From Clostridia bacterium (GTDB lineage: Bacteria > Acidobacteriota > Terriglobia > Terriglobales > Acidobacteriaceae), in NCBI GenBank assembly GCA_035561135.1, contig DATMYA010000085.1:124001-188000 (forward strand): DNA of 64,000 nucleotides, in the 5' to 3' direction. The notes under the pieces were generated by a model. It searched no databases. It had not been told where the DNA came from and was given only the letters and a program-made list of their open reading frames with translations. The translations under genes and the position numbers were made by a program. Below are positions 5,869-27,382 of this stretch, in pieces; position 1 is the first letter of the stretch; each line of letters opens with the position of its first letter.

Positions 5869-5870
5869 AT

Positions 5871-8437: not shown

Positions 8438-9264
8438 CGAATCAGATGACTCACTCTGTCGCTGCTCGCGATAACTCTATGAAGCGTCGGCTTCGGCTGC
8501 CCGGCGTGCCTGTGTTCGTCTACCACGGTATCGCTGAGGGGGCAGAAACGATTTCACCCGGCGACCGGAAGTATTGGGTGCGCGTCTCGGAATTGAAGCA
8601 GCACCTAAACCACATTCGCGCCAATGGCCATGCGATCTCGCTTGCGCAACTCACGGACCGGAGCATGACCCCTAACCCTGTCGTCATCACGTTCGATGAT
8701 GGACGACTCTCCGATTACGAGTTCGCTTATCCGGAATTGCAGAAAGCGGGCATGACCGCCGAGTTCTTTGTGAACACGGCAAAAGTTGGGACGCGCGGAT
8801 TCGCTGACTGGAGTCAGCTTCGAGAAATGCAACACGCTGGAATGTCCATCCAGTCGCACGCGCACGATCATGTCGATCTTGCACTACTGGCGGAAGGTGA
8901 CCTGGAACGGCAATTATCAGTATCCAAGAACATGATTGAAGAACGCCTCGGAACAGCCGTTCAGTTCCTGGCGGCGCCATACGGCCGGCTAAATGCAAAG
9001 CTAATCGAGATCGCTCTTAAGGTGGGATACCGCTCAGTTTGCAGCGCGCGCAGCATACCTGCGCAGTATGGAGCGACGAAGATCGACCGTGTGGTTCTGC
9101 ATCGTGACATGCCCTTAAAAGAATTTGCCCAATACTTCGACCGAGATCCGGTCCGATACCTTCGCCGAATCAGCCGCTCACTGCGTTATCGGTGGCCTCT
9201 GTCTGTGCTGTGCCGTCCGGCGTCTTCACGTTTGCAGCACGACTCCGTGGAGGGTTATCAATGA
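8434..9264 (+). CDS. Polysaccharide deacetylase (carbohydrate esterase 4 type)
   Basis: This 276-residue NodB-homology protein has motif 1 VVITFDDGRLSDY (the DD pair), motif 2 SIQSHAHDHVDL (H-x3-H metal ligands) and motif 3 LAAPYGRLNAKLIEIA. Members remove N- or O-acetyl groups from polysaccharides. No signal peptide is visible with the start at 8434, so it may act on lipid-linked intermediates in the cytoplasm, or export could use an unusual route. The start is chosen for the 4-bp ATGA overlap with the preceding glycosyltransferase. A second ATG at 8479 would shorten the tail before RRLRLPGVPVFVYHG. The stop overlaps the next gene in the same way. Confidence 0.87.
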   Translation: MTNQMTHSVAARDNSMKRRLRLPGVPVFVYHGIAEGAETISPGDRKYWVRVSELKQHLNHIRANGHAISLAQLTDRSMTPNPVVITFDDGRLSDYEFAYPELQKAGMTAEFFVNTAKVGTRGFADWSQLREMQHAGMSIQSHAHDHVDLALLAEGDLERQLSVSKNMIEERLGTAVQFLAAPYGRLNAKLIEIALKVGYRSVCSARSIPAQYGATKIDRVVLHRDMPLKEFAQYFDRDPVRYLRRISRSLRYRWPLSVLCRPASSRLQHDSVEGYQ

Positions 9265-10417: not shown

Positions 10418-11623
10418 ATGAGCCAGCGCATCTCGGTTCTCCAGTACACAAACACAATTGTTCGCGGCGGAGTGGAAGAGCACATCCTGGTGCTCCTCCG
10501 TGGATTGAACAGGGACATGTTCAAGCTCTCATTCGCGTGTCCGCCCGAACTGGCGTCGCAGATGCGAGCGGACGTTCCTCGCGATGTCGATTTCATAGAG
10601 ATTCCGATATTCCGATTCTGGCGTCTCGGCGAAGCTCGCCAATTCGCAACGCTCCTACGCAGCCGAGGAGTGCAGTTGTTGCACTCGCATATGTTTCAGA
10701 GCAGCCGCATGGCTTCGCCCATCGCTTCGTTCGCCGGGGTCCCAGCCATTATCGAAACGCCGCACGTCCGCGAGAGCTGGCGCAACCGCTGGCCGAGATC
10801 GAGCTATCTGCCGGACCGGATGCTGGCGCGTTGCGTCGATCGCTTTATTGCCATCTCCTACGCCAACGCGAAATACCTGGTCGCGGAAAAAGGTCTGCCC
10901 GGAGACAAAATCCGGGTCGTACAGAACAGTTGTGACCTCAAGCGATTCTCTGCGCCTCTTGCGGCGAATCCGCAGCTAAGGCACAGCGTCGGAGCCAGTG
11001 AATCCGATCCTTTGGTCCTTGTCGTCGCCCGTTTGGAACCGCAAAAAGGTCATCGCGTTTTACTCGAGTCGCTGCCGCAGGTCGTGCGCGAATGGCCGTC
11101 CCTGAAAGTGGTTTGCATCGGCGATGGCATCCTGCGACAGGAACTACTGCAACGTGCGGATGCGCTCGGCGTGACAAAGAACATCTCCTTCCTCGGCTTC
11201 CAGGCGAATGTTCCCGAATGGCTCGCGACCGCTGATTTCTGCGTGTTGCCTTCCTTTTACGAAGGATTGCCACTCGTAGCGCTGGAGTGCCTCGCCGCCG
11301 GGCGCGCAATGTTGGCCACCGCCGTGGATGGCACGCCGGAGGTGATTCAACACGAAGTAACCGGCTTGCTCGTCCCCCCTGGAGATTCAGCCGCGCTGGC
11401 GCGACAGATGTTGCGGCTAATTGCAGACCCCGAACTTCGTAAACGGTTGGGCGCAACGGGCCGGCAATTTGTGTTTCGGCAGTTCCGGGAAGAGCGACAG
11501 ATCAAAGAGACCGAGCAGGTTTATTACGAGCTCTGCAAAGCGAAATTGCCTCAGAGCCTCTGTCCTGCCCCCCCGGCCGAGTTCTCGGAACCGAGCCGCG
11601 ATGAGGCCACATCAATCGCATGA
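10418..11623 (+). CDS. Glycosyltransferase family 4
   Basis: This 401-residue GT-B enzyme has an N-terminal acceptor domain opening VLQYTNTIVRGGVEEHI and HSHMFQSSRMASP. The C-terminal donor domain has LVLVVARLEPQKGHRVLLES, VCIGDGILRQEL, FLGFQANVPEWLATADF and the E-x7-E signature PSFYEGLPLVALECLAAG. It is a retaining transferase that adds one sugar to the growing lipid-linked repeat unit; donor and acceptor are not predictable. It starts 2 bp after the phosphodiesterase gene and overlaps the nucleotidyltransferase-like gene by 4 bp. Confidence 0.9.
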   Translation: MSQRISVLQYTNTIVRGGVEEHILVLLRGLNRDMFKLSFACPPELASQMRADVPRDVDFIEIPIFRFWRLGEARQFATLLRSRGVQLLHSHMFQSSRMASPIASFAGVPAIIETPHVRESWRNRWPRSSYLPDRMLARCVDRFIAISYANAKYLVAEKGLPGDKIRVVQNSCDLKRFSAPLAANPQLRHSVGASESDPLVLVVARLEPQKGHRVLLESLPQVVREWPSLKVVCIGDGILRQELLQRADALGVTKNISFLGFQANVPEWLATADFCVLPSFYEGLPLVALECLAAGRAMLATAVDGTPEVIQHEVTGLLVPPGDSAALARQMLRLIADPELRKRLGATGRQFVFRQFREERQIKETEQVYYELCKAKLPQSLCPAPPAEFSEPSRDEATSIA

Positions 11624-13720: not shown

Positions 13721-14953
13721 ATGCTTTTGTTCTACCTCCTTATTTTGCTGATGGCCGTCGTGAGGCATCCGTGGCTCTCGCCGCTGCTCGGCGAAGACAC
13801 GATGTTTAAGTATCTGGGAGCAGTCTGCGCCGTTTATGCCGGGATTTACGTCTTCCGGCGGCGTACGGTCCCTCCCATTTTCCGCACCTGGCAAATGCGG
13901 ATATTTCTTGTTCTGTATGCCTGTGCTCTCGACTCTTACTTCACGCTCGGACTGACGCACTATCCGGCTCTAAGCTACTCCTCCATGGCGGTTCTGCTGC
14001 TGGTCACGATGACCATTGTCGATACCGAATCGCGATTGCGCGGAACCCTGATCGCAGTGGTCGCGTCCTTAGCGTTTGCGTCGCTCTACGTCATAAGGGA
14101 GTGGCAGGTCTATCACACCATGTACGAGGGTATGCGAGCCGCCGGAATCACAGGAGATTCGAACTACTTTTCGGCGTCGGCCCTGGTTTCAATTGCAGTC
14201 GCCTACTACCTGACGTCCAGGCAGGAGAGCAAGTTCGTACGGCTATTCGCCTTCGGGTCTCTCATCATTATCATGGTCGCAATCATGCTGGCAGCGTCTC
14301 GTGGTGGCTTGATCGGCCTAGCTGTCGCGGCAGCGCTCATCGCCGTCCGCTCACGTCATCGGATACTCGCATCCATTGCGATGCCACTATTCTTGGCGGC
14401 ATTCCTGTTCCTCGCGCCTAACTCGCCCCTCGATCGATTTCTTCACCCCGGCTACGGCGATGATTTGGCTGTACAGGCTCGTAAGCTGGCGTGGACAGCC
14501 GGAATGCGCATGATTGACACTCACCCATTGTTCGGCGTGGGGCTCGGCAACTTCAAGCCAATGATGTCCCAGTACAGCGATCCAGGTGTCACCATCACCG
14601 AAATCGCACACAACACTTATATCGAGATTGCCGCTGAATTGGGAATCCCAGCGCTGTTGCTGTTTTTAGCTCTTGTGGCCGCAACGTTTCTGTCGCTGCA
14701 AAAAGCGAGACGCCAGGCGCTGGAACTGGAGATGGATCTGGTATATAGGGCAGCCGGAGCTATGCAGGCAGGATTACTGGGGTTTGCTGTGGCAGCGGTC
14801 GTGCTGTCCGCCGAATACCAGAAATTGTTCTGGCTTGTGCTGGGAATTTCAATGGCGCTCCCGCAGATCATCGACGCACGCCTCAGGATGGTGGCAGAAA
14901 ATCAGGGCGAGTTGCCGGCACAGGATGCAGTAGGCACTGGGGTCTTACGATGA
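13721..14953 (+). CDS. O-antigen ligase / EPS polymerase (Wzy_C family membrane protein)
   Basis: This 410-residue protein is almost entirely hydrophobic, with ten or more predicted membrane segments from the first residue (MLLFYLLILLMAVVRHPWL). The Wzy_C block is MLAASRGGLIGLAVAAALIA followed by a periplasmic loop with the conserved THPLFGVGLGNFKPM and an E-rich HNTYIEIAAELGIPALLLFL. Proteins of this family either polymerise repeat units (Wzy) or ligate polymer to an acceptor (WaaL); the two cannot be separated here. In a locus with its own flippase and Wzz, a Wzy role is more likely. It overlaps the flippase gene by 4 bp. Confidence 0.88.
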   Translation: MLLFYLLILLMAVVRHPWLSPLLGEDTMFKYLGAVCAVYAGIYVFRRRTVPPIFRTWQMRIFLVLYACALDSYFTLGLTHYPALSYSSMAVLLLVTMTIVDTESRLRGTLIAVVASLAFASLYVIREWQVYHTMYEGMRAAGITGDSNYFSASALVSIAVAYYLTSRQESKFVRLFAFGSLIIIMVAIMLAASRGGLIGLAVAAALIAVRSRHRILASIAMPLFLAAFLFLAPNSPLDRFLHPGYGDDLAVQARKLAWTAGMRMIDTHPLFGVGLGNFKPMMSQYSDPGVTITEIAHNTYIEIAAELGIPALLLFLALVAATFLSLQKARRQALELEMDLVYRAAGAMQAGLLGFAVAAVVLSAEYQKLFWLVLGISMALPQIIDARLRMVAENQGELPAQDAVGTGVLR

Positions 14954-16554
14954 TCGAACCAGCGATCGAACCGGCGACGAAACCAATCCAGCAGCCGTCT
15001 CCCCAAGCTCCCGGCCTTGGTCGAAAACTAGTCGCCAGCACGTTTACGAATTTCGCTGGCCAACTGGTATTGATGGCAGCCACTTTCCTGTGGACGCCGT
15101 ACATCGTCCGCAACTTCGGTGATGCGCTATACGGTGTCTTCGTACTGTTGATGACGTACGTTGCCGTATTCACGCTGCTGGAATTAGGAATCAATTCCAG
15201 CCTTGTGAAACATCTCGCGGAGACTATCCCGCAAAAGCGTTTAGAGGACGTGAACAGTTATCTCGGGACCGCGATGGCGTTATTTTCCGGTACCGCGGTC
15301 GTCGTTGCACTGATTAGTGCAATCGGAGCGCCTTACATCGTAAGGCTCGCCCTCAATGTTCCCTCGCAATATTTCGAAGTCGCGGTGCTTGGAGTTCGAA
15401 TCGCCAGCGTGGCGTTTGCGCTGCAGTTCATCTCCCAGGGCTTCGCCTCTGTGCCCATCGCTACGCATCGCTTTGACGTAATGAACGGCATCCAGGTCGG
15501 CACCGAAATTCTGCGGATGGCACTAACTGCCGCGGCGGTGTTCGCCGGGTATCGTCTTACGGCAGTCATGTTGATAACCCTGCTGACGAGTTCGCTGCGC
15601 CTGTTGGCGTTCGCCATCGCAGCAAGCAAGCTGGTTCCAGGAATCTCCCTGCGCCCCCGATTCTCCACAAAGCACTTGTCCCACATCCTGCATTTTTCGA
15701 AATACATATTTATCAGCAAAGTCAGCTCCACGGCCGTCTGGAGTGCGGACAAGCTTTTCATCGGCCACTTCCTGCCGATTCAGTTCGTCGCGTTTTACTC
15801 GATCCCATTCCAGTTGAGCCAGAGAGTATGGGCCCTTGCCGGAAATGTGACGACCGTTGTCTTTCCTGCTGCCAGCGAACTTTCAATGGAAGCGAGCAAG
15901 GCCCGCCTTCATAACCTCTATCTGCGCAGCAACAAGATGGTGACCGCAATTCTGATGGCGCCGGCTCTCCTGTTGTTTGTCTTCAGCTCCCAGATTCTGA
16001 CTTACTGGATCAATCCGCTATTCGCGGAACGCGGCGCGTGGCCGCTCAGGCTGCTTGCGCTTGGATTCATGTTGAATGGACTTACCGTTGTTCCAGCCCT
16101 GGTTGCCGCTGCCGTGAACCGGCCTAACATTCAGGCTGCTTTCGCCGTAGCAAACTCCACCGCAAACATCGCGCTCTTTCTCATGCTGATTCCCAGATAC
16201 GGCACCACGGGTGCCGCTGCGGCTTTCTTCATTACGCAGGCCGTGCAGTGGCCCTGGTATATGCACACGGTCAACCGCCTCATCGGAATGAACAGCAGCA
16301 TCCTGCTGAAGAAAGTTTACGGACGCATAGCAATCCCTTCGATCTGCACCTTCGTTCTCGCGTTCGCGCTCAGATCGATGGTACATTCCCTGCTTTCACT
16401 CTTAGTCTGCCTTACCGCAATTGTCCTTGCGAATCTCGTCCTCCTTTTCTTCTTTGCCCTGGATGGCGACGAACGAGGCACATGTTTTCAGGTCGCGAAC
16501 TCATGGATACCGTGCCGCGCGCGCGAGTTATTTTCAACCGGCGGAGGAGCCTAG
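14950..16554 (+). CDS. Polysaccharide flippase (Wzx, MOP superfamily)
   Basis: This 534-residue protein has about 12-14 membrane segments spread along its length (for example FVLLMTYVAVFTLLELGINS, ALRLLAFAIAAS-type helices, ILMAPALLLFVFSSQIL). It has the polysacc_synt-type N-terminus LVASTFTNFAGQLVLMAATF, with WTPYIVRNFGDALYG. The protein moves lipid-linked repeat units from the inner to the outer leaflet of the cytoplasmic membrane. It works with the priming transferase at 5871 and the Wzy-type protein just upstream. The C-terminal 30 residues after the last helix are not hydrophobic. Its stop is followed at once by the GTG of the last glycosyltransferase. Confidence 0.88.
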   Translation: MIEPAIEPATKPIQQPSPQAPGLGRKLVASTFTNFAGQLVLMAATFLWTPYIVRNFGDALYGVFVLLMTYVAVFTLLELGINSSLVKHLAETIPQKRLEDVNSYLGTAMALFSGTAVVVALISAIGAPYIVRLALNVPSQYFEVAVLGVRIASVAFALQFISQGFASVPIATHRFDVMNGIQVGTEILRMALTAAAVFAGYRLTAVMLITLLTSSLRLLAFAIAASKLVPGISLRPRFSTKHLSHILHFSKYIFISKVSSTAVWSADKLFIGHFLPIQFVAFYSIPFQLSQRVWALAGNVTTVVFPAASELSMEASKARLHNLYLRSNKMVTAILMAPALLLFVFSSQILTYWINPLFAERGAWPLRLLALGFMLNGLTVVPALVAAAVNRPNIQAAFAVANSTANIALFLMLIPRYGTTGAAAAFFITQAVQWPWYMHTVNRLIGMNSSILLKKVYGRIAIPSICTFVLAFALRSMVHSLLSLLVCLTAIVLANLVLLFFFALDGDERGTCFQVANSWIPCRARELFSTGGGA

Positions 16555-17481
16555 GTGCCGCGTATCTCGTTCACAGCTATTATCCCCACCAAGAATCGCG
16601 CGCACGATTTGACTCTTGCGGTCCGCAGTCTGCTGCAGCAGTCTGTTCTTCCCGCCGAGGTGCTCATCGTTGACCAGAGCCCCGACGACCAAAGTCGAAT
16701 CTGTGTCGAGCAGGAGTTTGCCTCTGCGCTCGCGCAAGTTGACAACGTAAAGCTCACTTATATTCACGACATCGAAATCACGGGTGGAGCGACAGCGCGC
16801 AACAGGGCGATGCAGGTCGCGAGCGGAGATATCTGGCTTTTCCTTGACGATGACGTGGTACTCGAACCCGACTTCATCGAGCAATTGATGAACGCCTATG
16901 CGCGCTATCCAGAAGCCACAGGCGTCTCCGGCGTAGTCACGAATTATCCCAAACCGCCGTTGTTTTTCCGCGTCTGGAACACGCTTTTCGTGCGTGGACC
17001 ATTTCACGACGATCGCCAACCTATCTACTGGCACGCGGAACAACTGCGTCACAGCGACCCCATCCCTGTAACCCGATTCGGCGGCGGATTGATGAGTTTT
17101 CGGGCAGAAACAATCCGGAACTGTATCTTCGATCCCAACCTGACGGGCGTCTCAGATGGCGAGGATGTGCAGTTCTGTAGCCGTCTTCCCGAGGGGTCTG
17201 TGCTCCTGATAGCACCCCGAGCTCGTCTCGTTCATAATTGCAGCCCCATTGGCCGGGACCGGGATCACTGGCTACGAAGAGAGGCCCGCTCAACGCATTA
17301 TCTGTTCTGGAGCGTGTGGGACCACGGCATCTATAACCGTATCTGCCTTGCGTGGCTGACCGTTGGCTATGTATCTCTAAGCTTTATCGGGGCGCTTCGG
17401 AGGGGTTCCCTGGAGCCGTGGCGTGCATTCCGGGCGGGTGTGAAGGACGCAAAATCGGTCTTCATGCGGGAGATGCAGTAG
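16555..17481 (+). CDS. Glycosyltransferase family 2
   Basis: This 308-residue GT-A enzyme begins RISFTAIIPTKNRAHDLTLA, then VLIVDQSPDDQSR, GATARNRAMQVASGDIWLFL with the metal motif DDDVVLEPDF, and GEDVQFCSRL on the acceptor side. A single weak hydrophobic stretch lies near the C-terminus. It probably adds one residue to the repeat unit. It starts with GTG at 16555, directly after the flippase TAG with no gap, so translation is probably coupled. It is the last gene of the long plus-strand EPS operon; the next genes are on the other strand. Confidence 0.87.
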   Translation: MPRISFTAIIPTKNRAHDLTLAVRSLLQQSVLPAEVLIVDQSPDDQSRICVEQEFASALAQVDNVKLTYIHDIEITGGATARNRAMQVASGDIWLFLDDDVVLEPDFIEQLMNAYARYPEATGVSGVVTNYPKPPLFFRVWNTLFVRGPFHDDRQPIYWHAEQLRHSDPIPVTRFGGGLMSFRAETIRNCIFDPNLTGVSDGEDVQFCSRLPEGSVLLIAPRARLVHNCSPIGRDRDHWLRREARSTHYLFWSVWDHGIYNRICLAWLTVGYVSLSFIGALRRGSLEPWRAFRAGVKDAKSVFMREMQ

Positions 17482-17522
17482 GTTCTCGATAGTTCACGAT
17501 TGTGATGGCAATTGCTTCGTGC

Positions 17523-19754
17523 TTACGGCTGCATCCATTGCGTGTTCGCCTGCTTGACCGGCGTCAAAAAGTCACCATAGCAGAACTGCGAAGTTTTCAC
17601 GCCAACGTTCTTCCAAACCACAGAGCCGTCGCCAGCAAACGCGCCTTCTCTCGGAGGCCAGGGCGGCTGTGAATCCCCGGAGACACCGGGTCTGACCACT
17701 TCGTACGTATACCGCGTCCCCGCAACATCTACCTGGATTCTCGATCCTCCTCTTGGTGTAGAGTCCGGGACTGAATAAGCGTGGTTCGGCTGCCAGCCTG
17801 GGATAGATTCTTCGGCGTATGTCACGACTCCTAAGCTAGTCCTGTGAGATCCCTGGCAGGCCTCCACTCCGTCGTATGCGTTGTCATGCAGAGAAACGAC
17901 ACCCCAGTTCCCTTCCACCCAGTTGTCGTGGAACTCCCACCAGCGAATACCGATAATCGTTCGCGTGTCATAGACCGTGTTCCTGGTATTGACGAACACG
18001 TTCATGGAATCTGCGTAGAACCTGCCGCGCTCCTCCTGCGTGTTACAGGGATTACAATGCGTGTCCGCAGCGTTCGCATACCTCCACATCGCCGAATCGG
18101 CGGTGGACTTGGCACCGTGCCAAAGAATGATGGGCTTGTCGCCTGCATGTGTGGCTACGTAATTGAGCTCGGACTGAAGTCGGCGGTAATCGGGCTGCCA
18201 TGTGAGCACATCGACGTACGTTGCGGCCGCCTGTAAAACATTGCTGTTCCCGACGCCACCCCAGGTTCCCAGCACTCCGGGTCCGAAATACAAACTGTGC
18301 GGTGAGTAATGCTTGATTCGCTCGCGGGTCACCGAAAAGTATTGTGTTGCAAGCTCTCTGAGGAACGCGTTCATATCGTTATTGAACGCGACGTTTGAGC
18401 CAAGATGAACTTTGTCGGTCGGAATCCACGCATGTCGACCGTCCTCGTCCATCAGCCCTGCGCCATAACCCCAACCATCGCGGACGTAATCAATGGTGAT
18501 CGCGGCACCGCTCACGGGCGCTCGGTTGAAGGTGATTGTGAGCACACCCTTCGCATAGTCAATGTCTCCAGCCGATACTGTCACTTCGGCCCCGGCCCTC
18601 AGACCAGTAAATCCGCCGTGGCCTGTCGCAGCAGCTGTGCACAACCATCTCGGACAATCGCCCCCGACTTTGATGCCAGACACTTTCATCGCCACGCTGA
18701 GCGGCGAGATATTCCTATTGGATAATGTCTTTGTAAATGTGGCAGTCGAGCCGTCTCCAACGCCGAGCGGTTCAGCGATGGTTTGCATTCCCGTGGAGTC
18801 CCACTGGGCGTAGTTACTGCCCCATGCAGAGTTTAGGGCCGCAAGACTTGGATAGCGTTTTTGAAGGAAAGCCTTCAATTGGGTCTTAGTGGCGACTTCC
18901 TGATTCGCATACACCTGGGGCGTTCTTACCATCGCTCGTCCCGGATTTGCATTCTGCACAGGTGAGGACACGAGCGTCATCAATGCCTGGTGCCGCTGGT
19001 TGTGGCCCGGAGGATTTGTCGCCATCTCCGGTCCCGCACCACACAAACCGAAGAGCGCATCGCATTCGTCGGACACCCATCCGACTACCCAAGGCGAGTT
19101 CTGCGCCGGTTTTAAGCTGGCATCATTCCGCAATGCGCCGTCGAGCCATGCGTAGAAGTTGGGATCCCAGATGTCGGGGAAAGTCGAGTTATGACCTTTA
19201 CCGTAATACGCAACGTTAACGCCGGACTGCACGTCCTTGACCGCGCCCGCTGCATAACCGCCAGAGTTGTAAAGCGAATACATCGAAGGCTGAACCATGA
19301 CGACCATTGGCACAGGATAAGGCTGCTTGCCACCAGCTTTCTCCCATCCACCTGGGCAACTCGGAGGCCAGCCACAGGTCGTTATGGGCAGTACCCACTT
19401 GACGGAGAATTCCGCGACGGAGTTAAAGCCCCACGACTTCAGTCGCCGCACCGTCTCCGGTCCCCATATCGTGTTGCTGTTGCCGTATTTCGCCCTAACA
19501 ACGGCGTCGTACGTGGTGCCCAGGTCGGTCTTGTGCGAGTCTGGCGTCACGTTATACATGGCGATCATCCACCACACGTGACCTTCCGGGGTGCAAAACC
19601 ACCAGCGATCTTGAAGCTTTTGTGTGTGAAACCACCCTGTCGCAGTACAAGGTTTCGACTTCAGTCCGCCAAATTGGTCGAGCCTCTGGGACATCGCAAG
19701 CGAGGGCGTCAGGCAGATCACCAGGCAGAAGAGGGCGGATGTCCACTTGTTCAT
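17523..19754 (-). CDS. Secreted glycoside-hydrolase-like protein (TIM-barrel type), paralogue of the adjacent lipoprotein
   Basis: This 743-residue protein has a cleavable signal peptide (MNKWTSALFCLVICLTPSLAMS). The body resembles clan-A-type TIM-barrel hydrolases: WWFCTPEGHVWWMIAMY near the start, LKSWGFNSVAEFS, YAWLDGALRND, WVVGWVSDECDALFG (candidate acid/base region), then YPSLAALNSAWGSNYAQWDS, which is like the GH42-type YxxxxxLNxAWG motif. Late blocks are PIILWHGAKSTADSAMW and IIGIRWWEFHDNWVEGNWG (candidate nucleophile Glu). A small C-terminal module with YTYEVVRPGVSGDSQPPWP and SVVWKNVG resembles a carbohydrate-binding or tail-type beta domain. It is probably a periplasmic or extracellular enzyme that trims or degrades polysaccharide; the family number is not assigned. 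It faces the EPS operon end on. Confidence 0.7.
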   Translation of the reverse strand: MNKWTSALFCLVICLTPSLAMSQRLDQFGGLKSKPCTATGWFHTQKLQDRWWFCTPEGHVWWMIAMYNVTPDSHKTDLGTTYDAVVRAKYGNSNTIWGPETVRRLKSWGFNSVAEFSVKWVLPITTCGWPPSCPGGWEKAGGKQPYPVPMVVMVQPSMYSLYNSGGYAAGAVKDVQSGVNVAYYGKGHNSTFPDIWDPNFYAWLDGALRNDASLKPAQNSPWVVGWVSDECDALFGLCGAGPEMATNPPGHNQRHQALMTLVSSPVQNANPGRAMVRTPQVYANQEVATKTQLKAFLQKRYPSLAALNSAWGSNYAQWDSTGMQTIAEPLGVGDGSTATFTKTLSNRNISPLSVAMKVSGIKVGGDCPRWLCTAAATGHGGFTGLRAGAEVTVSAGDIDYAKGVLTITFNRAPVSGAAITIDYVRDGWGYGAGLMDEDGRHAWIPTDKVHLGSNVAFNNDMNAFLRELATQYFSVTRERIKHYSPHSLYFGPGVLGTWGGVGNSNVLQAAATYVDVLTWQPDYRRLQSELNYVATHAGDKPIILWHGAKSTADSAMWRYANAADTHCNPCNTQEERGRFYADSMNVFVNTRNTVYDTRTIIGIRWWEFHDNWVEGNWGVVSLHDNAYDGVEACQGSHRTSLGVVTYAEESIPGWQPNHAYSVPDSTPRGGSRIQVDVAGTRYTYEVVRPGVSGDSQPPWPPREGAFAGDGSVVWKNVGVKTSQFCYGDFLTPVKQANTQWMQP

Positions 19755-19796
19755 GATGTTCGTTGAATCCTACAACGGAGCGCAGGTCCTCAACGC

Positions 19797-19826
19797 AAAA
19801 AAAGCGGCCATTATCAGTGGCCGCTT
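19797..19826 (-). terminator. Rho-independent terminator after the Ig-domain lipoprotein gene
   Basis: On the minus strand a perfect 8-bp stem (AGCGGCCA/TGGCCGCT, extendable by one A-T pair) with a 7-base loop is followed by a run of seven T. It lies 21 bp beyond the stop of the 19848-23207 gene and before the start of the next minus-strand gene. The two paralogues are therefore probably separate transcription units. Confidence 0.85.
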
Positions 19827-19847
19827 GCTGAGTCCAAATCGAGACGA

Positions 19848-22800
19848 CTACTGCAATTGCCTCCACAGAGCGTTAGCTTTCTTCACCTGCGTGAGCATAT
19901 CGCCATAGCAGGTTGAGGAAGTCTTCAGCCCTACGTTCTTCCACGTAACCGTGCCATCCGTGACTGTGGCTCCTTCGACCGTGGGCCATGCCGGCTGAAC
20001 GGTGCCGGATGTTCCCGAGACAGATGCCTGATATAGATAACGCTTCCCGTCGCTTACTACAGCCTGAATGCGATTTCCTTTTACACCTGACGAAGGAACA
20101 CCGGAGGCAACCTTGTATATCGTCGCCGCTTGCCAGCTCGGGACGTTCTCTTCCGCGAAGGTTTTATATCCGAACGCATCTGTTGTGGAAACGCTGCAGT
20201 TCTCCACGCCATCGTAGGCATTATCTTGCAGCGAGACGAGTCCCCAGTTCCCTTCCAGCCAGTTGTCATGGAATTCCCACCAGCGAATGCCTATGACCGT
20301 GCGCGAATCGAACGACGTATTCTTCGTGGCCAGGAACGTGGACATGGAATCGAAGTAGAACTTGCCACGCTCCTCCTGCGTGTTGCAGGGATTGCATTCG
20401 GTATCGGTTGGGTTCGTGTAGCGCCACAACGCGGAGTCGGCGGTGGACTTCGCGCCATGCCAGAGAATCACCGGTTTATCGCCAAGATGGGTGGCAACGT
20501 ACTCGACCTCTGCCGACAACCGCGCGTAGTCTGGCTGCCATGTAAGCACGTCAACATAGGATGCCGCAGCCTCAAGGACATTCTTATTGGCCACGCCGCC
20601 CCACGTTCCCATTACGCCGGGGCCAAGGTAAAGGTTATTTGGCGCGTAGTGCTTGATGCGCTCGCTCGTGACCGAGAAGTAAGTATCTGCCAAGGCCTTG
20701 AGAAACGCGTCCATATCCGCGTTGAAGGACGTATTCGTACCGAGGTAAACCTTGTCAGTGGGGATCCACGAGTGGCGGCCATCCTCATCCATAAGACCGC
20801 TGCCATAGCCCCATCCGTCGCGAACGTAATCAACGGAGATAATTTCGCCGTTAGCAGGTGCAGTCGCAAAGCTCACGGTGATTGCGCCATTGGAATAGTT
20901 GATATCTCCGCCGGCAATAGCATTTGGCTGGGTTGAAGTTGGACCGGTAAACAGTCCGTGTCCGGTCGTCGCCGCACCACATAACCACTTCGGACAATCG
21001 CCGCCTACCTTTGTTCCCGACACTCTTACCCCGACACTTAGCGCAGCAATATTGATGTTTGCTAATGTCTTGGTGAAGGTTTTCGTGACTCCGTCACCTT
21101 TGCCGAGAATCTCGCCGTTCACTTGCGTTCCCGTTGAATCCCATTGGGAGTAGTTGCTGCTCCATGCATTGTTCAAGGCAGCGATGCTGGAATAACGACC
21201 TTGCAGGAACAGCTTGAGTTGGGTTTTGCTAAAGACGTCCTGCTCGGCGTAAACCTGTGGAGACGACACCATTGCCCGTCCCGGATTGGCGTTCTGCACG
21301 GGCGAGGTCACCAACGTCATGAGCCCCTGGTGCCTCTGATTGTGACCTTGCGGGATGGTGGCCATGTCCGGCCCGGCCCCACAAAGACCAAACAGTGAAT
21401 CGCACTCGTCGGAAATCCAACCAACCACCCACGGTGAATTCTGCGCCGCCTTGATGCTCGAATTGTTCTGCAGTTCCCCATCCAGCCATGCGTAGTAATT
21501 CGTGTCCCAAATGTCGGGAAATGTGGAATTCCAACCCGCGCCGTAATAGCTCGGCGTTATGCCGGACTGAATGTCCTTCACCGGACCAGGAGCATAGTTT
21601 CTGGAGTTGAATAGAGAGTACATAGATGGCTGAACCATCGTCAGCATCGGAACCGGAGCAGGCTGTTTGCCTCCATTCTCACCCCATCCGCCTGGGCAAC
21701 TCGGCGCCCAACCGCACGTCTGGATCGGAGTCACCCAACTAACCGAAAACTCCGCCACCGAATTGAAGCCCCACGACTTCAGACGCCGGACTGTCTGCGG
21801 ACCCCAGATCGTGTCCTTGTTGCCATACTTCGCGGTGACGACAGCATCGTAAGACGTCCCTAGATCCGTTGTATGCGAGTCTCCAGCCACGTGGTACATC
21901 GCAACCATCCACCAGATGTGCCCTTCCGGAGTGCAGAACCACCACTTTCCATTGATCTGCTCTGTGTGGAAGAATCCCGTCGCGTTGCAACTACTGGACA
22001 TTAAGCCACCGTACTGATCCAGCATGTCGCTGGAGATTAAGATGGAGAGAGTTTTCGACGCCGTCTGGCTGTTTGCATCTGCAACCTGAACAGTGAACGT
22101 AGATGTGCCGCCTATGGTTGGCGTACCGCTCAGACTGCCCGATGTGGCTGCCAAAGTTACCGATCCCGGCAGGCTTCCGCTTACCACTTTCCATGTGTAC
22201 GGCTCGGTTCCGCCCATTGCAGCGAGCGAAGCTGCATAGGGTTGCCCCAAGGTGCCGCTCGATACCGAGTTCGTTGTGATCGCCAGCGACTGCAAGGTCG
22301 TCGTCGATACTTGAATTGCAAAATTCGCTGTAGTTTTCTGCGATACCGAGTCTGTCAGTTGAGCCGTAAACGAATAGCTCCCCGCAACAGTCGGCGTGCC
22401 CTTGATCGCCCCATCCGGACCAAGGCTCAATCCTGCGGGCAAACTACCTGCAGCCAGGCTCCAGGCATAGGGAAGCTGGCCGCCTGTGCCAGACAGCGTC
22501 GCAGAATACGCTGTGCCGATTTTCGCGTCGGGGAAACTCACCGTCTCTATCGCCAGGGGTGCAACCGACTGCGTTACCGCTAGCGAGTAAGTTGCCGATG
22601 TGCTCTGTGCGGGAGACGTCGTGTCCGTCGCCATCACAACGAATGAGGAGCTACCCGCAGCCGTAGGTGTGCCGGAAATCGTTCCATTTGAGCCCAGGGA
22701 GAGACCAGCCGGAAGCGTTCCGCCCGCGAGCGCGTAGGCGTACGGCTTCGAACCGCCCGTCGCCGACAGCGTGGCCGAATAACTTGCGTTGGCCGTGGCC

Positions 22801-23207
22801 GCCCCAAGGGCGCCACCGGTGAGCTTCAGTTTCTGAACAACCGTAAGCTTGAAGTTTTTGCTCTGGGACCGCGTCGACGAGTCCACCACTTCCACACCAA
22901 CCTGGAAGGTCCCAGTCTGCTCAGGAATTCCTTCAAACACTCCCCGCGAGGAGTCGAACGAGACGCCCGACGGCAGAGCCGAATTCTTATTTAGCCGCCA
23001 GCTATACGGTGGGGCGCCCCCCGCTGCTTGCAGTGCGGCGGCGTACGTGGTCAGTTGAGTGCCGCTTGGCAGGGTTGACGTCGCAATAACCGGCGTGGAG
23101 GACTTGGAGTTCGACGCGGCTTCCGCGACTGTGCCGCCGCAACCTGTAAGAGCAAGAGCCAGCACTATTGCCAAGACGATGATTCTGCGTTGATACGTAA
23201 GCACCAT
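19848..23207 (-). CDS. Ig-like-domain lipoprotein with C-terminal glycoside-hydrolase-like domain
   Basis: This 1119-residue protein has a lipoprotein signal (VLAIVLALALTGCGG, lipobox LTGC). Four putative Ig-like (He_PIG) repeats of about 85-90 residues follow between about residues 40 and 390, each with GGxxPYxWxxxxGxLPxGxxL and GTPTxxGxxxF. From about residue 393 (LDQYGGLMSSSCNATGFFHT) it is closely similar along its length to the neighbouring 743-residue protein, including WWFCTPEGHIWWMVAMY, WVVGWISDECDSLFG, PVILWHGAKSTADSALW and GIRWWEFHDNWLEGNWG. The Ig-like repeats probably hold the hydrolase domain away from the membrane or bind polymer. Sorting beyond the inner membrane is likely but not shown by the sequence. 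It probably acts on the EPS made by the adjacent operon; this is inferred from position. Confidence 0.75.
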   Translation of the reverse strand: MVLTYQRRIIVLAIVLALALTGCGGTVAEAASNSKSSTPVIATSTLPSGTQLTTYAAALQAAGGAPPYSWRLNKNSALPSGVSFDSSRGVFEGIPEQTGTFQVGVEVVDSSTRSQSKNFKLTVVQKLKLTGGALGAATANASYSATLSATGGSKPYAYALAGGTLPAGLSLGSNGTISGTPTAAGSSSFVVMATDTTSPAQSTSATYSLAVTQSVAPLAIETVSFPDAKIGTAYSATLSGTGGQLPYAWSLAAGSLPAGLSLGPDGAIKGTPTVAGSYSFTAQLTDSVSQKTTANFAIQVSTTTLQSLAITTNSVSSGTLGQPYAASLAAMGGTEPYTWKVVSGSLPGSVTLAATSGSLSGTPTIGGTSTFTVQVADANSQTASKTLSILISSDMLDQYGGLMSSSCNATGFFHTEQINGKWWFCTPEGHIWWMVAMYHVAGDSHTTDLGTSYDAVVTAKYGNKDTIWGPQTVRRLKSWGFNSVAEFSVSWVTPIQTCGWAPSCPGGWGENGGKQPAPVPMLTMVQPSMYSLFNSRNYAPGPVKDIQSGITPSYYGAGWNSTFPDIWDTNYYAWLDGELQNNSSIKAAQNSPWVVGWISDECDSLFGLCGAGPDMATIPQGHNQRHQGLMTLVTSPVQNANPGRAMVSSPQVYAEQDVFSKTQLKLFLQGRYSSIAALNNAWSSNYSQWDSTGTQVNGEILGKGDGVTKTFTKTLANINIAALSVGVRVSGTKVGGDCPKWLCGAATTGHGLFTGPTSTQPNAIAGGDINYSNGAITVSFATAPANGEIISVDYVRDGWGYGSGLMDEDGRHSWIPTDKVYLGTNTSFNADMDAFLKALADTYFSVTSERIKHYAPNNLYLGPGVMGTWGGVANKNVLEAAASYVDVLTWQPDYARLSAEVEYVATHLGDKPVILWHGAKSTADSALWRYTNPTDTECNPCNTQEERGKFYFDSMSTFLATKNTSFDSRTVIGIRWWEFHDNWLEGNWGLVSLQDNAYDGVENCSVSTTDAFGYKTFAEENVPSWQAATIYKVASGVPSSGVKGNRIQAVVSDGKRYLYQASVSGTSGTVQPAWPTVEGATVTDGTVTWKNVGLKTSSTCYGDMLTQVKKANALWRQLQ

Positions 23208-23539
23208 GGCGCCACCTCAACTTCGATGTCGCATCAACGCTAGCCTTCGTTGCTGCTTGAATCTACTGGGCTTAGGTGCAAAAAAGGTACAGTTGGTGGA
23301 CCTGTTCCAAACCTGTCCCTCGGACCAATTAACGAACTTGATTCCCGCTACAAGGGAGAAGAACTCTGGTACCGAAGTGCAACTTTTTGCACTATCCGCG
23401 CGACGCGAGGGCTTAGTTCGAAAAAACTCCTTTAAGTCCCTAATTATCTGTTAGTTACAACGAAGATACGTCTCTCGATTTTGGCTTTCAACGTGCAACT
23501 TCGTGTGCGTAGCGACGACTTGCTAAAGATTTCGCAGGA
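23208..23539. other. Divergent intergenic region between lipoprotein and exosortase genes
   Basis: These 332 bp hold no convincing gene. The plus-strand exosortase promoter region includes a GG-N10-GC element listed separately. A direct pair of short GTGCAAAAAA / GTGCAACTTTTT segments occurs near 23276 and 23377. No terminator is needed here because the two genes diverge. The promoter of the minus-strand lipoprotein gene was not recognised, and no sigma-54 signature was found on that strand. Confidence 0.5.
23481..23497 (+). promoter_or_regulatory. Candidate sigma-54 (-24/-12) promoter for the exosortase gene
   Basis: TTGGCTTTCAACGTGCA has the invariant GG (23483-23484) and GC (23495-23496) spaced by exactly 10 bp. 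The -24 half TTGGC fits the consensus; the -12 half GTGCA differs from TTGCA at one base and the CACG extension is missing. Transcription would begin near 23508, about 30-40 bp before the start codon. It is weaker than the site at 27811. Confidence 0.45.
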
Positions 23540-24460
23540 GTGTGCTTGCCCTCTGATGCTCAAATCCGCGCCGAGGCACCGCCCACCTCGGCGCTCGAGT
23601 CCGCCGTTGGGAAATCGGTTTGGTCGTATTGGCCCATCGCGCTGCTGGCCGCAGTCGTGGCAGCCCTGTATGGCTCGGTTTTGCCTGGCTTAGTAAAGCA
23701 GTGGTACGCGGACCCCGAATACTCCCACGGATTTTTGGTGCCGGTCGTCAGTGCGTATGCGCTGTGGACGATGCGCGAAAGGCTTAGAACTCTTCGGCCA
23801 AAACCGGCAGTCTCGTTCGGCGGGGTCGCATTAATAGCCAGCTTGATGCTGCTTTTCCTCGGAAGCCTCGGTGCCGAGCTTTTCCTTACCCGCGTTTCGC
23901 TACTGGCTACGATTACGGCCCTGGTGCTCTACTTTGGCGGTTGGACGCTGTTGCAAGCTATCGCCTTCCCGCTCGGATTCCTTCTCCTGGCGATTCCTTT
24001 GCCCGCCATCCTCTACAACCAGATTGTGTTTCCGCTGCAACTCCTGGCTTCGCAGCTTGCAACCGGTTGCCTGGATACCGCGCACGTCGTGCCCATCCTG
24101 CGCGAAGGCAATGTCCTCATCCTGCCCAACACGACTTTAGAAGTGGTGGAAGCCTGTAGCGGCATTCGTTCACTCATGTCGCTCATTACGCTTGCGGTCG
24201 CCTATGGCTTTTTAACCGAGAAGAGCATTGCAATCCGGTGGCTGCTCGCCCTCGGCATGGTGCCGGTCGCAATTTTCACCAACAGCGTGCGGGTGATGAG
24301 CACGGCGACCATCACGTATTACTGGGGAGTAGAGGCAGCGGAAGGATTTACTCACACGTTTTCGGGACTGGCGATCTTCATCGCCGCGACGTTTCTCATG
24401 ATCGGACTTCATGCAGCACTCCGAAAAACCTGGAAAACATTGCATTGGGAGCGCGCATGA
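23540..24460 (+). CDS. Exosortase (EpsH/Xrt family)
   Basis: This 306-residue integral membrane transpeptidase has about eight helices. The catalytic triad is visible: Cys in VVEACSGIRS (C206), Arg in NSVRVMSTATI (R251) and His in GFTHTFSG (H272). Exosortases cleave PEP-CTERM substrates at the cytoplasmic membrane and release them to the surface. Unlike XrtA, the EpsI-like domain is not fused but encoded by the next gene, with a 4-bp ATGA overlap. The start is uncertain. GTG 23540 is used here, but AGGAG at 23536-23540 overlaps it. TTG at 23546, five bases after that sequence, may be the true start. Its substrates are probably the two PEP-CTERM proteins at 27868 and 28633. Confidence 0.92.
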   Translation: MCLPSDAQIRAEAPPTSALESAVGKSVWSYWPIALLAAVVAALYGSVLPGLVKQWYADPEYSHGFLVPVVSAYALWTMRERLRTLRPKPAVSFGGVALIASLMLLFLGSLGAELFLTRVSLLATITALVLYFGGWTLLQAIAFPLGFLLLAIPLPAILYNQIVFPLQLLASQLATGCLDTAHVVPILREGNVLILPNTTLEVVEACSGIRSLMSLITLAVAYGFLTEKSIAIRWLLALGMVPVAIFTNSVRVMSTATITYYWGVEAAEGFTHTFSGLAIFIAATFLMIGLHAALRKTWKTLHWERA

Positions 24461-25092
24461 AACCTAATGCAAAGTACTGGCTCGTTCTCGTCATCCTCGT
24501 AGCTGCCACGTTGGGATTGAATGCGCTGTCACATGGCGAGCCTGCGCTGCCCCTGCACCCCATCAGTTCCATTCCGCTGCAATTCGGCGCATGGGTGGGA
24601 CAGCAGAGAGAGCTGGAAGATCGCTTCGTGCAGGCGCTTGGCGTGGACGACTACCTCTACCGGACTTATCAGCGTGGGAACGAAATTCCGGTCGGCCTGT
24701 ACATAGGGTTCTACGCGACCCAGCGGACCGGTTCCACGATCCATTCACCAAAGAACTGTTTGCCCGGCGCGGGCTGGCAAGCCATCCATGCGGACACGAT
24801 TCCGCTTAAGCGCCCGGACGGCTCCTCGGCGGTTGCAAATCTCTACATCGTGCAGAAGGGCTTGCAGAAACAGCTCGTCGTCTACTGGTATCAATCGCAC
24901 GGCCGTATCGTTGCGAATGAATACTGGGGAAAAATCTACCTCGTCGTTGACGCCATCCAGTTGAACCGCACCGACGCGGCGCTGGTGCGCGTTGTAACGC
25001 CATTCGAGGGAAGCGACCAGGATGCGCGTGTGCGCGCCGCGGAGTTCGCTCAAGAAATCATCGGCTATGTTGACGCGGCTGTCCCGCGATAG
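24457..25092 (+). CDS. epsI: EpsI-family exosortase-associated protein
   Basis: This 211-residue protein has an N-terminal membrane anchor (YWLVLVILVAATLGLNAL) and a periplasmic domain with the family motifs VGLYIGFYATQRTG, HSPKNCLPGAGW (residues 96-107) and VVYWYQSHGRIVANEY. EpsI is found beside or fused to exosortases; its role is not settled, with periplasmic maturation of the EPS or help to the exosortase proposed. The start at 24457 overlaps the exosortase stop. The longer in-frame reading upstream lies within the exosortase gene and is rejected. Confidence 0.92.
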   Translation: MKPNAKYWLVLVILVAATLGLNALSHGEPALPLHPISSIPLQFGAWVGQQRELEDRFVQALGVDDYLYRTYQRGNEIPVGLYIGFYATQRTGSTIHSPKNCLPGAGWQAIHADTIPLKRPDGSSAVANLYIVQKGLQKQLVVYWYQSHGRIVANEYWGKIYLVVDAIQLNRTDAALVRVVTPFEGSDQDARVRAAEFAQEIIGYVDAAVPR

Positions 25093-25108
25093 CTCCAGGA
25101 GAACCAGA

Positions 25109-27382
25109 ATGCGTGCTCGGATCGTCACACTCGTCTCGTGCTTTATCGTCCTTCTCTGCGTCACCGGATGCTCCCGTGATCCGGAAAAAGCCAAGCGCCG
25201 CTACCTCGAGAGTGGCCAGCGCTATATGCAGCAGCAGAAGTACTCCGAAGCGCAGATCCAATTTAAGAATGCGCTGAAGAAGGATCCGAAGTTCGTCGAA
25301 GCGTACTTCAAGCTCGCGACCGCGCAGATCGCTCTCAAGCAGTGGTCCGATGCTTACGTCACTCTCCAGCAGGCTTTAGCTCTCGATGCATCTCGCGACG
25401 ACATTCGTATCGAGTTGGCAAAGCTCTATGCAGGCGCCGGGTCTTTCCATGACGCCGAGGAGCAGGCGAACACCGTGATCGAGCACGACCCGAAAAATGC
25501 CGGAGCTTATCAGGTCCTGGGCTCGGCGCTCGTCGCGCAGCAGAAACCGGCTCTTGCGCTGGCGGCCTTCAAGAAGTGCGTTGAACTCGCGCCGAACGAT
25601 GCCGCTGGTTACATCAATGCCGGACTCACCTTCGTCACGTTGCGCCAGTTCGATCAGGCTGAGCAGTTTCTCCGCAAAAGCATCGAGGTCGATCCCTCTG
25701 CTCTTCAGGGCTACACCAACCTTTCCAACCTGTACCGGCTGACTCGTGACTACAACAAGGCCTCCGAAGTGCTCGCCGCCGGACTCCAGCACATTCCGAA
25801 TAACCTCGATCTGCACGTCAGCCGTGCCGATATCCTTTGGGCGCAGCAGCGGCCCGACCTGGTGGCTCAGACTTTCGACCAGCTTCGAACCCGGCTCGGC
25901 GACAACGCCAAGGTCTCCCTCGCCATCGCCGATTTCTACGCCGTTCGCCAGGCACACGACAAGGCCATTGCCGAAATGCAGCACGGGCTATCTCTCGACA
26001 AGAACAATTCGGCATTCAAGAACCGGCTCGTCGAAGAGTACCTGGTCACCGGCAAGCAGGACGAAGCAATCAGGTTGAATTCCGAGGTGTTGAAGTCGAG
26101 TCCCAAGGATGTGCTCGGCCGCATCCATCAAGGCCGTATCCTGCTCGCTCAGAATCAGGTCAATGACGCTCTGAACCTGCTGCGTTCGGTGGCCGCAGAC
26201 GCACCTGAAAATGCTTCCGCGCACTATCATCTTGCGCGGGTGCTCATGATGATGAATGACGCCACCCAGGCGCGAACGGCGTTGAATGAAGCCATTAAAG
26301 TAGCGCCGGATTCGCCTGATGTGCTGCAAGCTCTTGGGGAGCTGCAACTCTCACAGGGCGAATTGCCCACAGCTCTTGAATATGCGCAGCGCAAAGCCGA
26401 ACTGTATCCGACCGACGTAGCAGGACGTCTGTTGCTCGCCCAGGTTTTGTCGCGCCAGAAGAAATTGCAGGCTGCTGAGCAACAATACAAAATAGCGCTC
26501 CAATTTGCGCCGGCCTCGCCGGAGGTCTACTCGCACTTTGGCGGCTTCTATAGCTCGGCCGGAAGACTGAAAGACGCCGAGGCGCAGTATGAGAGCGCGC
26601 TCCGCGCATCCAGTCAATACATTCCTGCCTTGGCTGCCCTGGCCGACGTCATCGAAAAGCAGAACCAGCCCGCCCGCGCCCAGGCTCGTGTCGAGCAGTT
26701 CGTCCAGGCATATCCCTCCGATCCCGCCGGTCACATCGTTTTCGCCAACCTGCTGGAGAGACGGAAGGACTACGCGCGATGCGAGCAGGAACTCGAACGC
26801 GCGTTGCAGTTGTCCCCGAACAACACGGTAGCTTACCTCCAGCTGGGACGCATCTACCAGGCCCAAAAGAAGACGGATGCCGCGATCCAGAAGTTCTCAA
26901 AGGCGCTCGAGCTGCAACCGAAGACGCCTGCGCTTCAGGCTCTTCTCGGCAACCTCTACATGGACAAGAATGATCTCGTGAAGGCGCGCATGTATTACGA
27001 ACAAGCACTGGCGAACGACCCCAATTTTGCCGTCGCTGCCGGAAACCTCGCGTGGGTCTACACCCAGGACGGCGGGAATCTGGACGTCGCCCTCGGCCTC
27101 GCACAGAAAGCCAAGCAACTTCTGCCCGAAGTCGATTCCATCTCCGATACGCTCGCATGGGTCTATTACAAGCGCGCAAATTACGACAGCGCGATTGAAC
27201 TGCTTCGTGACTGCGTGGACAAGTCGCCGCAGCGCGGATCCTATCGTTACCACCTTGGCATGGCGCTCATGCAAAACGGCAAGCAGGACCAGGCGCGCAA
27301 GCAACTCGAAGCCTCGTTGAAACTCGACTTGAAGCCAGCCGATGCCACTGAGGCGCGTAAGGCCCTGGACCAACTGCGCTAG
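25109..27382 (+). CDS. prsT: PEP-CTERM-system TPR-repeat lipoprotein (PrsT-like)
   Basis: This 757-residue protein has a lipoprotein signal (IVTLVSCFIVLLCVTGCSRD, lipobox VTGC). It then consists of about twenty tetratricopeptide repeats from residue 30 to the C-terminus, with the usual A/G-Y/F-A pattern (for example QKYSEAQIQFKNALKKDPKFVEA style units). Long TPR lipoproteins next to exosortase genes form the PrsT family and are thought to scaffold polymer export across the periplasm, much as AlgK or PgaA do. ATG 25109 is chosen for the signal peptide and the CAGGAG ribosome binding site just upstream (25096-25101). It follows epsI by 16 bp and is likely in the same operon. Confidence 0.88.
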   Translation: MRARIVTLVSCFIVLLCVTGCSRDPEKAKRRYLESGQRYMQQQKYSEAQIQFKNALKKDPKFVEAYFKLATAQIALKQWSDAYVTLQQALALDASRDDIRIELAKLYAGAGSFHDAEEQANTVIEHDPKNAGAYQVLGSALVAQQKPALALAAFKKCVELAPNDAAGYINAGLTFVTLRQFDQAEQFLRKSIEVDPSALQGYTNLSNLYRLTRDYNKASEVLAAGLQHIPNNLDLHVSRADILWAQQRPDLVAQTFDQLRTRLGDNAKVSLAIADFYAVRQAHDKAIAEMQHGLSLDKNNSAFKNRLVEEYLVTGKQDEAIRLNSEVLKSSPKDVLGRIHQGRILLAQNQVNDALNLLRSVAADAPENASAHYHLARVLMMMNDATQARTALNEAIKVAPDSPDVLQALGELQLSQGELPTALEYAQRKAELYPTDVAGRLLLAQVLSRQKKLQAAEQQYKIALQFAPASPEVYSHFGGFYSSAGRLKDAEAQYESALRASSQYIPALAALADVIEKQNQPARAQARVEQFVQAYPSDPAGHIVFANLLERRKDYARCEQELERALQLSPNNTVAYLQLGRIYQAQKKTDAAIQKFSKALELQPKTPALQALLGNLYMDKNDLVKARMYYEQALANDPNFAVAAGNLAWVYTQDGGNLDVALGLAQKAKQLLPEVDSISDTLAWVYYKRANYDSAIELLRDCVDKSPQRGSYRYHLGMALMQNGKQDQARKQLEASLKLDLKPADATEARKALDQLR

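Follow-up and report, generated by a model that had tools for sequence, protein, structure and literature searches.

A plain and an Ig-bearing GH50-like protein in an acidobacterial exopolysaccharide cluster, and the linkage of their family to wzy

Two paralogous genes within an exopolysaccharide cluster

The window, i.e. the whole stretch of 64,000 nucleotides that was analyzed (contig DATMYA010000085.1 of assembly GCA_035561135.1, positions 124,001 to 188,000, placed by GTDB in the Acidobacteriaceae), contains two minus-strand genes, P0001 and P0002, that lie within an exopolysaccharide (EPS) biosynthesis cluster and whose products share a region related to glycoside hydrolases of family GH50. 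Both open reading frames (ORFs) are found where a first-pass annotation, made from the sequence alone, had placed them, and their products align with 497 identical residues out of 728 (68%; BLASTP, E = 0). No other copy is present in the host genome (4.19 Mb). The two genes comprise the following features:

17523..19754, minus strand: P0001, plain secreted GH50-like protein of 743 aa (ORF; 68% identity to P0002; AlphaFold model)
19848..23207, minus strand: P0002, GH50-like lipoprotein of 1119 aa with four immunoglobulin (Ig)-like He_PIG domains (ORF; He_PIG E=1.1e-42; lipobox LTGC)
23139..23207, minus strand: P0002 lipoprotein signal peptide, lipobox Cys23 (sequence MVLTYQRRIIVLAIVLALALTGC; Pfam LPAM_1 below cut-off only)
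22032..23090, minus strand: the four He_PIG domains of P0002, N-terminal to the barrel, approximate bounds (He_PIG search, four stretches)
19851..22022, minus strand: GH50-like barrel region of P0002, aa 396-1119, including two inserts (BLASTP and alignment with relatives)

As read from the sequence, the N terminus of P0001 (MNKWTSALFCLVICLTPSLA) resembles a Sec signal and that of P0002 (MVLTYQRRIIVLAIVLALALTGC) carries the lipobox LTGC, in agreement with the plain secreted form and the lipoprotein with four Ig repeats that had been annotated. Also as annotated, no PEP-CTERM tail was recognized at either C terminus (VKQANTQWMQP for P0001 and VKKANALWRQLQ for P0002), so that the two proteins are not exosortase substrates by this feature. 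Export of both proteins, and action in the periplasm on the polymer made by their own cluster, are likely.

The pair sits on the strand opposite to the rest of the cluster: it converges with the last glycosyltransferase (GT) gene of family GT2, which ends at 17481, and diverges from the exosortase gene, which begins at 23540. The annotated position between the EPS operon and the exosortase is therefore correct.

The common region is a GH50-like barrel

Neither Pfam nor NCBIfam holds a family that covers the barrel region. A search of the PDB with a single sequence already retrieved GH50 beta-agarases, and they were retrieved again with a profile built from eleven family sequences (E=2e-37); direct comparison of the family with GH50 by hhalign gave E=5.7e-60. 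GH50 structures were likewise the top PDB matches of the AlphaFold model of the P0001 barrel (pLDDT 84.8, pTM 0.86). A second model, that of a compact wzy-coupled relative, reached a pLDDT of 92.3. When compared with GH50 chains, the two models gave Z 30.4 (402 residues, 2.5 Å) and Z 28.1 (396 residues, 2.4 Å); overall, GH50 chains scored Z 26-30 over about 400 residues, and the next family about 21. The viral structures compared yielded distant glycoside hydrolases only. Computation thus establishes that the common region is a clan GH-A (beta/alpha)8 barrel whose nearest family is GH50, and the glycoside hydrolase (TIM-barrel) fold foreseen in the first-pass annotation was borne out by the structure prediction that it had called for.

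The fold is shared with Aga50D (4bq2), AgWH50C (5z6p), PfGH50B (6xj9) and BpGH50 (5t3b) over about 400 residues; when structurally aligned, the agarase chains are 24-27% identical in sequence. GH50, the closest characterized family, degrades agarose or beta-1,3-glucan (PMC11079163). Unlike GH50, which is tied to agarolysis, the present family is tied to EPS biosynthesis genes, as described below.

Alignment with relatives showed that the shared domain, annotated as about 700 residues long, is indeed alignable over 728 residues but actually consists of a barrel of about 530 residues into which two modules, aa 323-426 and about 651-724 of P0001, have been inserted:

18477..18788, minus strand: insert 1 of the P0001 barrel, aa 323-426, beta-rich (alignment and model; P0002 equivalent 20817-21128)
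17583..17804, minus strand: insert 2 of the P0001 barrel, aa about 651-724 (alignment; P0002 equivalent 19911-20144)

Insert 1 is missing in about half of the aligned rows, so it is carried by part of the family, and it displays weak similarity to a phage protein (phrog_1014, E=3.3e-5). Insert 2 is restricted to the window pair and was not confidently modelled (pLDDT <50 in the AlphaFold model); its P0002 copy matches a head decoration family (phrog_20658, E=2.6e-8). Phage-virion-like modules sit inside a bacterial glycoside hydrolase barrel (17583-17804 and 18477-18788).

The GH50 catalytic pair is not conserved and other acidic residues are nearly invariant

The catalytic residues of GH50 are Glu534 (acid/base) and Glu695 (nucleophile) of Aga50D (PMC11079163). 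HMMER and hhalign both map them to C231 and H546 of P0001. The positions discussed below are the following:

19059..19070, minus strand: D229-E230-C231-D232, end of strand beta-4, C231 being at the GH50 acid/base position (profile alignments)
18117..18119, minus strand: H546, where GH50 has its nucleophile Glu695 (profile alignments)
18444..18449, minus strand: D436-E437, two adjacent invariant acidic residues in a loop specific to the family and missing in GH50 (alignment)

Both glutamates are present in the three GH50 comparison sequences and occur together in none of the 49 members of the family. The two catalytic glutamates of the clan, which the first-pass annotation had expected, are thus incomplete in every member, the 12 that have the Glu695 equivalent having it alone. 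Shifting the alignment by one residue at beta-4 would turn E230 into the acid/base, with the nucleophile still not restored. The aligned sequences exclude the usual GH50 two-glutamate mechanism.

The absence of paired acidic residues, by which the annotation proposed to judge its own hydrolase assignment, thus holds for the canonical pair; other acidic residues are invariant. Indeed, charged residues are conserved at [DE]230 (48/48), D232 (47/48), D436 (48/48), E437 (47/47), E614 (45/48) and R576 (48/48), D553 and E648 are likewise invariant or nearly so, and alignment columns 229-230 read DD, DE, ED or EE in 44 of the 48 sequences. According to hhalign, E614 aligns with the active-site residue Glu757 of Aga50D (PMC11079163), and W606 occupies the position of Phe742. 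Judging from this pattern, either other residues, e.g. the acidic pair, would carry out catalysis or the barrel would be a binding protein. The most likely replacement set would be [DE]230-x-D232, at the end of beta-4, together with D436/E437 or with an N-acetyl group of the substrate. A mechanism of the latter type is known from GH20 enzymes, which are substrate-assisted and use a neighboring Asp-Glu acidic pair in place of an enzymic nucleophile (PMC11883664). In substrate-assisted glycosidases of the GH20/GH84 type, such a pair lies where beta-4 ends, around the N-acetyl group in the -1 subsite. The family may resemble GH20 hexosaminidases and dispersins in having such a neighboring pair, a likeness that is a motif analogy and not a demonstrated homology.

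The family is linked to EPS assembly genes and coupled to wzy

Relatives were sought in genome contigs. Scanning with a single protein retrieved none, and scanning with an alignment (A3) retrieved 41 loci; another alignment (A2) still contained the Ig repeats, and its matches, mostly to He_PIG, were discarded except for genome G469. We then compared 32 member loci of at least 12 kb with 20 regions of 20 kb drawn at random from related genomes. Core EPS assembly genes were present in 15/32 loci and in 0/20 controls (Fisher p=1.3e-4, loci of the same genome not being independent). Counted by genome, a copy lies beside core EPS assembly genes in 18 cases out of 29. Linkage of the GH50-like family to EPS genes is thereby established by computation.

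In 11 loci, wzy is located immediately 5' of the GH50-like gene on the same strand, and the latter is therefore inside the EPS operon. The junction is a 4-bp ATGA stop/start overlap in seven of these loci, the remaining four being at -8, -8, -1 and +9 nt. Moreover, on a Rokubacteria contig (locus L089, 2671-5607), Wzy and the GH50-like domain form a single ORF of 978 aa with no N and no internal stop, in which a PEP_O_lig-type Wzy is joined to the barrel via an extra hydrophobic segment. The N termini of the relatives are either Tat-like (L067, L086 and L074; some wzy-coupled members are included) or of the Sec or lipoprotein type. The link to EPS loci that had been proposed for other Acidobacteriota is hence stronger than guessed.

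As to the partner, the annotated association with exosortase EPS loci holds for the Wzy-dependent EPS cluster and not for the exosortase itself: in genome G142, the exosortase gene and the pair are found on different contigs, whereas adjacency to wzy and the GT2 gene is retained, which rules out the exosortase as a direct partner.

Note that the genomes JAJYIU (L067, L084) and JAKASR (L081, L086) each possess two different EPS clusters, each with a wzy-coupled GH50-like gene, plus two additional GH50-like copies elsewhere. A literature search, partial in coverage, turned up no publication describing a GH50-type gene within a cluster for EPS biosynthesis.

The two copies are old and both maintained

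P0001 and P0002 differ by a non-synonymous divergence (dN) of 0.24 with saturated synonymous divergence (dS), and their amino-acid identity (69%) exceeds their nucleotide identity (66%). Consequently, the pair is old and both copies are maintained by purifying selection. A recent duplication is ruled out by the saturated dS, and a recent horizontal gain by the third-position GC content (GC3 0.65), which is that of the adjacent cluster genes.

Genome G142 also has a pair (741 and 1127 aa), again one plain and one He_PIG-bearing protein, beside a homologous glycosyltransferase gene. On the tree, the window pair are sisters and so are the G142 pair, each at 100% support; the three G469 copies cluster together. 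Since each pair is a pair of sisters, plain-plus-Ig pairs evolved at least twice, unless gene conversion homogenized older pairs. The duplication proposed in the first-pass annotation, yielding a plain form and an Ig-bearing lipoprotein, is upheld. Convergent pairs of members of about 900 and 1340 aa were also observed away from recognized EPS genes (L064, L065); these duplicates are older than the window pair.

The surrounding cluster and non-coding elements

Window positions 1-17.5 kb and 23.5-27.4 kb make up one complete Wzy-dependent EPS cluster, with genes for a chain-length determinant, ATPase, kinase, initiating sugar transferase, glycosyltransferases, deacetylase, Wzy, flippase, exosortase, EpsI and PrsT. 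It is of the XrtA type, since TIGR02602, TIGR02914, TIGR02917 and TIGR03007 all score above cut-off. The host genome encodes a single exosortase and has a single close homologue of wzy.

2450..4012, plus strand: XrtA-system polysaccharide chain-length determinant (TIGR03007 above cut-off)
4016..4966, plus strand: XrtA/PEP-CTERM-associated ATPase (TIGR03015 E=1.2e-87, slightly below cut-off)
5646..7253, plus strand: initiating sugar transferase (Bac_transf E=1.7e-60)
8392..9264, plus strand: polysaccharide deacetylase (PF01522 E=3.6e-24)
10418..11623, plus strand: GT4 glycosyltransferase
13721..14953, plus strand: Wzy/O-antigen-ligase-type polymerase (Wzy_C E=1.2e-19; TIGR03097 E=9.5e-32)
14950..16554, plus strand: Wzx-type flippase (Polysacc_synt_3)
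16555..17481, plus strand: GT2 glycosyltransferase, whose homologue adjoins the GH50-like pair in G142
23540..24460, plus strand: exosortase (PF09721 E=7.2e-68; TIGR02602 above cut-off)
24238..25092, plus strand: EpsI, true start probably downstream of the first start codon (DUF3485; TIGR02914)
25022..27382, plus strand: XrtA-system tetratricopeptide repeat (TPR) protein PrsT (TIGR02917 above cut-off)

The cluster resembles known XrtA/PEP-CTERM clusters in having PrsT, the chain-length determinant, the ATPase, the exosortase, EpsI and a PEP_O_lig-type Wzy; it differs from them by the GH50-like component, which is absent among the NCBIfam models of that system that were searched. Two further genes recur in relatives: a conserved EPS-cluster gene at 11620-12732, which matches no Pfam or NCBIfam family and whose neighbor in most of the EPS loci retrieved is GT2_b or GT4, and a type I phosphodiesterase-like gene at 9192-10415, whose order before GT4 is kept in many of them.

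Two non-coding elements flank P0002:

19802..19826, minus strand: intrinsic terminator-like hairpin between the paralogues (perfect 9-bp stem, then a T run)
23208..23539, no strand assigned: divergent intergenic region between P0002 and the exosortase gene (perfect inverted repeat AGTGCAA-N4-TTGCACT at 23376-23393)

The hairpin is the single site found, against a shuffle mean of 5.8, and is a pattern match only; it suggests that the P0002 transcript may end there and that P0001 would need a separate promoter. The inverted repeat is a possible regulator site; among the loci compared, this genome alone has it. Rfam gave no match over 16500-24500, and the count of sigma-70-like sites was not above that of shuffles.

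A probable processing role on the cluster's own polymer, and its alternatives

We think it rather probable that P0001 and P0002 are secreted GH50-like barrels whose site of action is the cell envelope and whose target is the polymer of the surrounding EPS cluster; they would be PslG-like processing enzymes with a remodelled active site. In the commonest arrangement among relatives, the GH50-like gene follows wzy directly and is translationally coupled to it, and for this reason the protein would be made alongside the polymerase and would act on the nascent or periplasmic chain, which it might cut, trim or clear. Hydrolysis by the pair is plausible; cleavage would have to proceed without the Glu534/Glu695 pair, the invariant [DE]230-x-D232 most likely taking over with D436/E437 or with an N-acetyl group of the substrate. 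The soluble and Ig-spaced lipoprotein forms, which the window lineage and G142 have each acquired separately, would allow the same activity to be deployed at two different distances from the membrane. The first-pass annotation had suggested a polymer-specific depolymerase paired with its own EPS cluster: the location is supported, the catalytic detail is not.

PslG of the Psl operon, PelA and AlgL are degrading enzymes encoded within EPS biosynthesis operons, where they cut, trim or clear the chain, and PslG provides a precedent for the proposed role (PMC9075953). The GH50-like genes resemble these three in being glycosidase-like, in residing in EPS operons and in carrying an export signal, and PslG is a weak structural match to the GH50-like model. 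Unlike the three, they belong to a different enzyme family with no sequence relationship found, are wzy-coupled or fused, lack the canonical pair and are duplicated as a soluble form and an Ig-bearing lipoprotein.

Several observations weigh against the processing role. The Glu534 column holds A, T, G, S, L, C, I or R and is acidic in none of the 48-49 members, and the Glu695 column is Glu in 12/49 members, with His546 in the two window proteins. In 30/49 members, among them these two proteins, beta-7 ends without an acidic residue. The window pair is on the strand opposite to the operon and does not adjoin wzy, and several GH50-like copies lie outside recognizable EPS loci. The family is also patchy: strong matches occur in 6 out of 250 genomes of the bacterial family vs 140 with an exosortase, from which it follows that the EPS system functions without the GH50-like gene.

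The loss of both catalytic positions would also fit a non-catalytic barrel that binds the EPS chain and guides it from Wzy to export or, in the lipoprotein form, holds it at the membrane. Its Ig repeats and inserted modules resemble binding or spacer parts, and coupling to wzy would be as natural for a subunit that handles the chain as for an enzyme. However, the charged residues ([DE]230, D232, D436, E437, E614 and R576) are conserved beyond what is expected for a mere binder, and E614 coincides with an active-site glutamate of Aga50D (PMC11079163). We regard this explanation as the main rival, though a rather unlikely one. Given that GH50 enzymes degrade agarose or beta-1,3-glucan (PMC11079163) and that several copies lie outside EPS loci, the proteins might instead serve to catabolize a foreign polysaccharide of the agar or beta-glucan type, the location in EPS clusters being incidental. 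This is improbable in the face of the core EPS genes in 15/32 loci vs 0/20 controls, the recurrent ATGA overlap with wzy and the Wzy fusion; besides, no transporter or other polysaccharide-utilization gene was seen beside the window pair. Slightly less probable still is that they are transglycosylases or ligases moving the finished chain to a lipid or protein acceptor together with a PEP_O_lig-type Wzy. The partner Wzy does belong to the Wzy_C/TIGR03097 'O-glycosylation ligase' family, and coupling and fusion to it would make sense; yet nothing in the sequence prefers transfer over hydrolysis, and we know of no GH50 relative that transfers chains to an acceptor.

Returning to the processing role, a more specific version of it is tentative, and we would sooner bet against it than for it: a GH50-derived family with no Pfam or NCBIfam model would have swapped the two-glutamate mechanism for a substrate-assisted or inverting one based on [DE]230-x-D232 and would serve the EPS polymerase Wzy as its dedicated partner, sometimes in one polypeptide, so that polymerization would be tied to cutting and the two together would determine chain length or release.

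The family, an unannotated one, is a marker for some of the exosortase-type EPS clusters. If catalytic, it would be a case of a familiar barrel with a remodelled active site and would be a source of depolymerases specific for the exopolysaccharides of abundant soil bacteria. As to why EPS operons encode polymer-degrading enzymes, a family that is coupled to the polymerase, and once fused to it, gives a direct test of whether cutting is part of synthesis.

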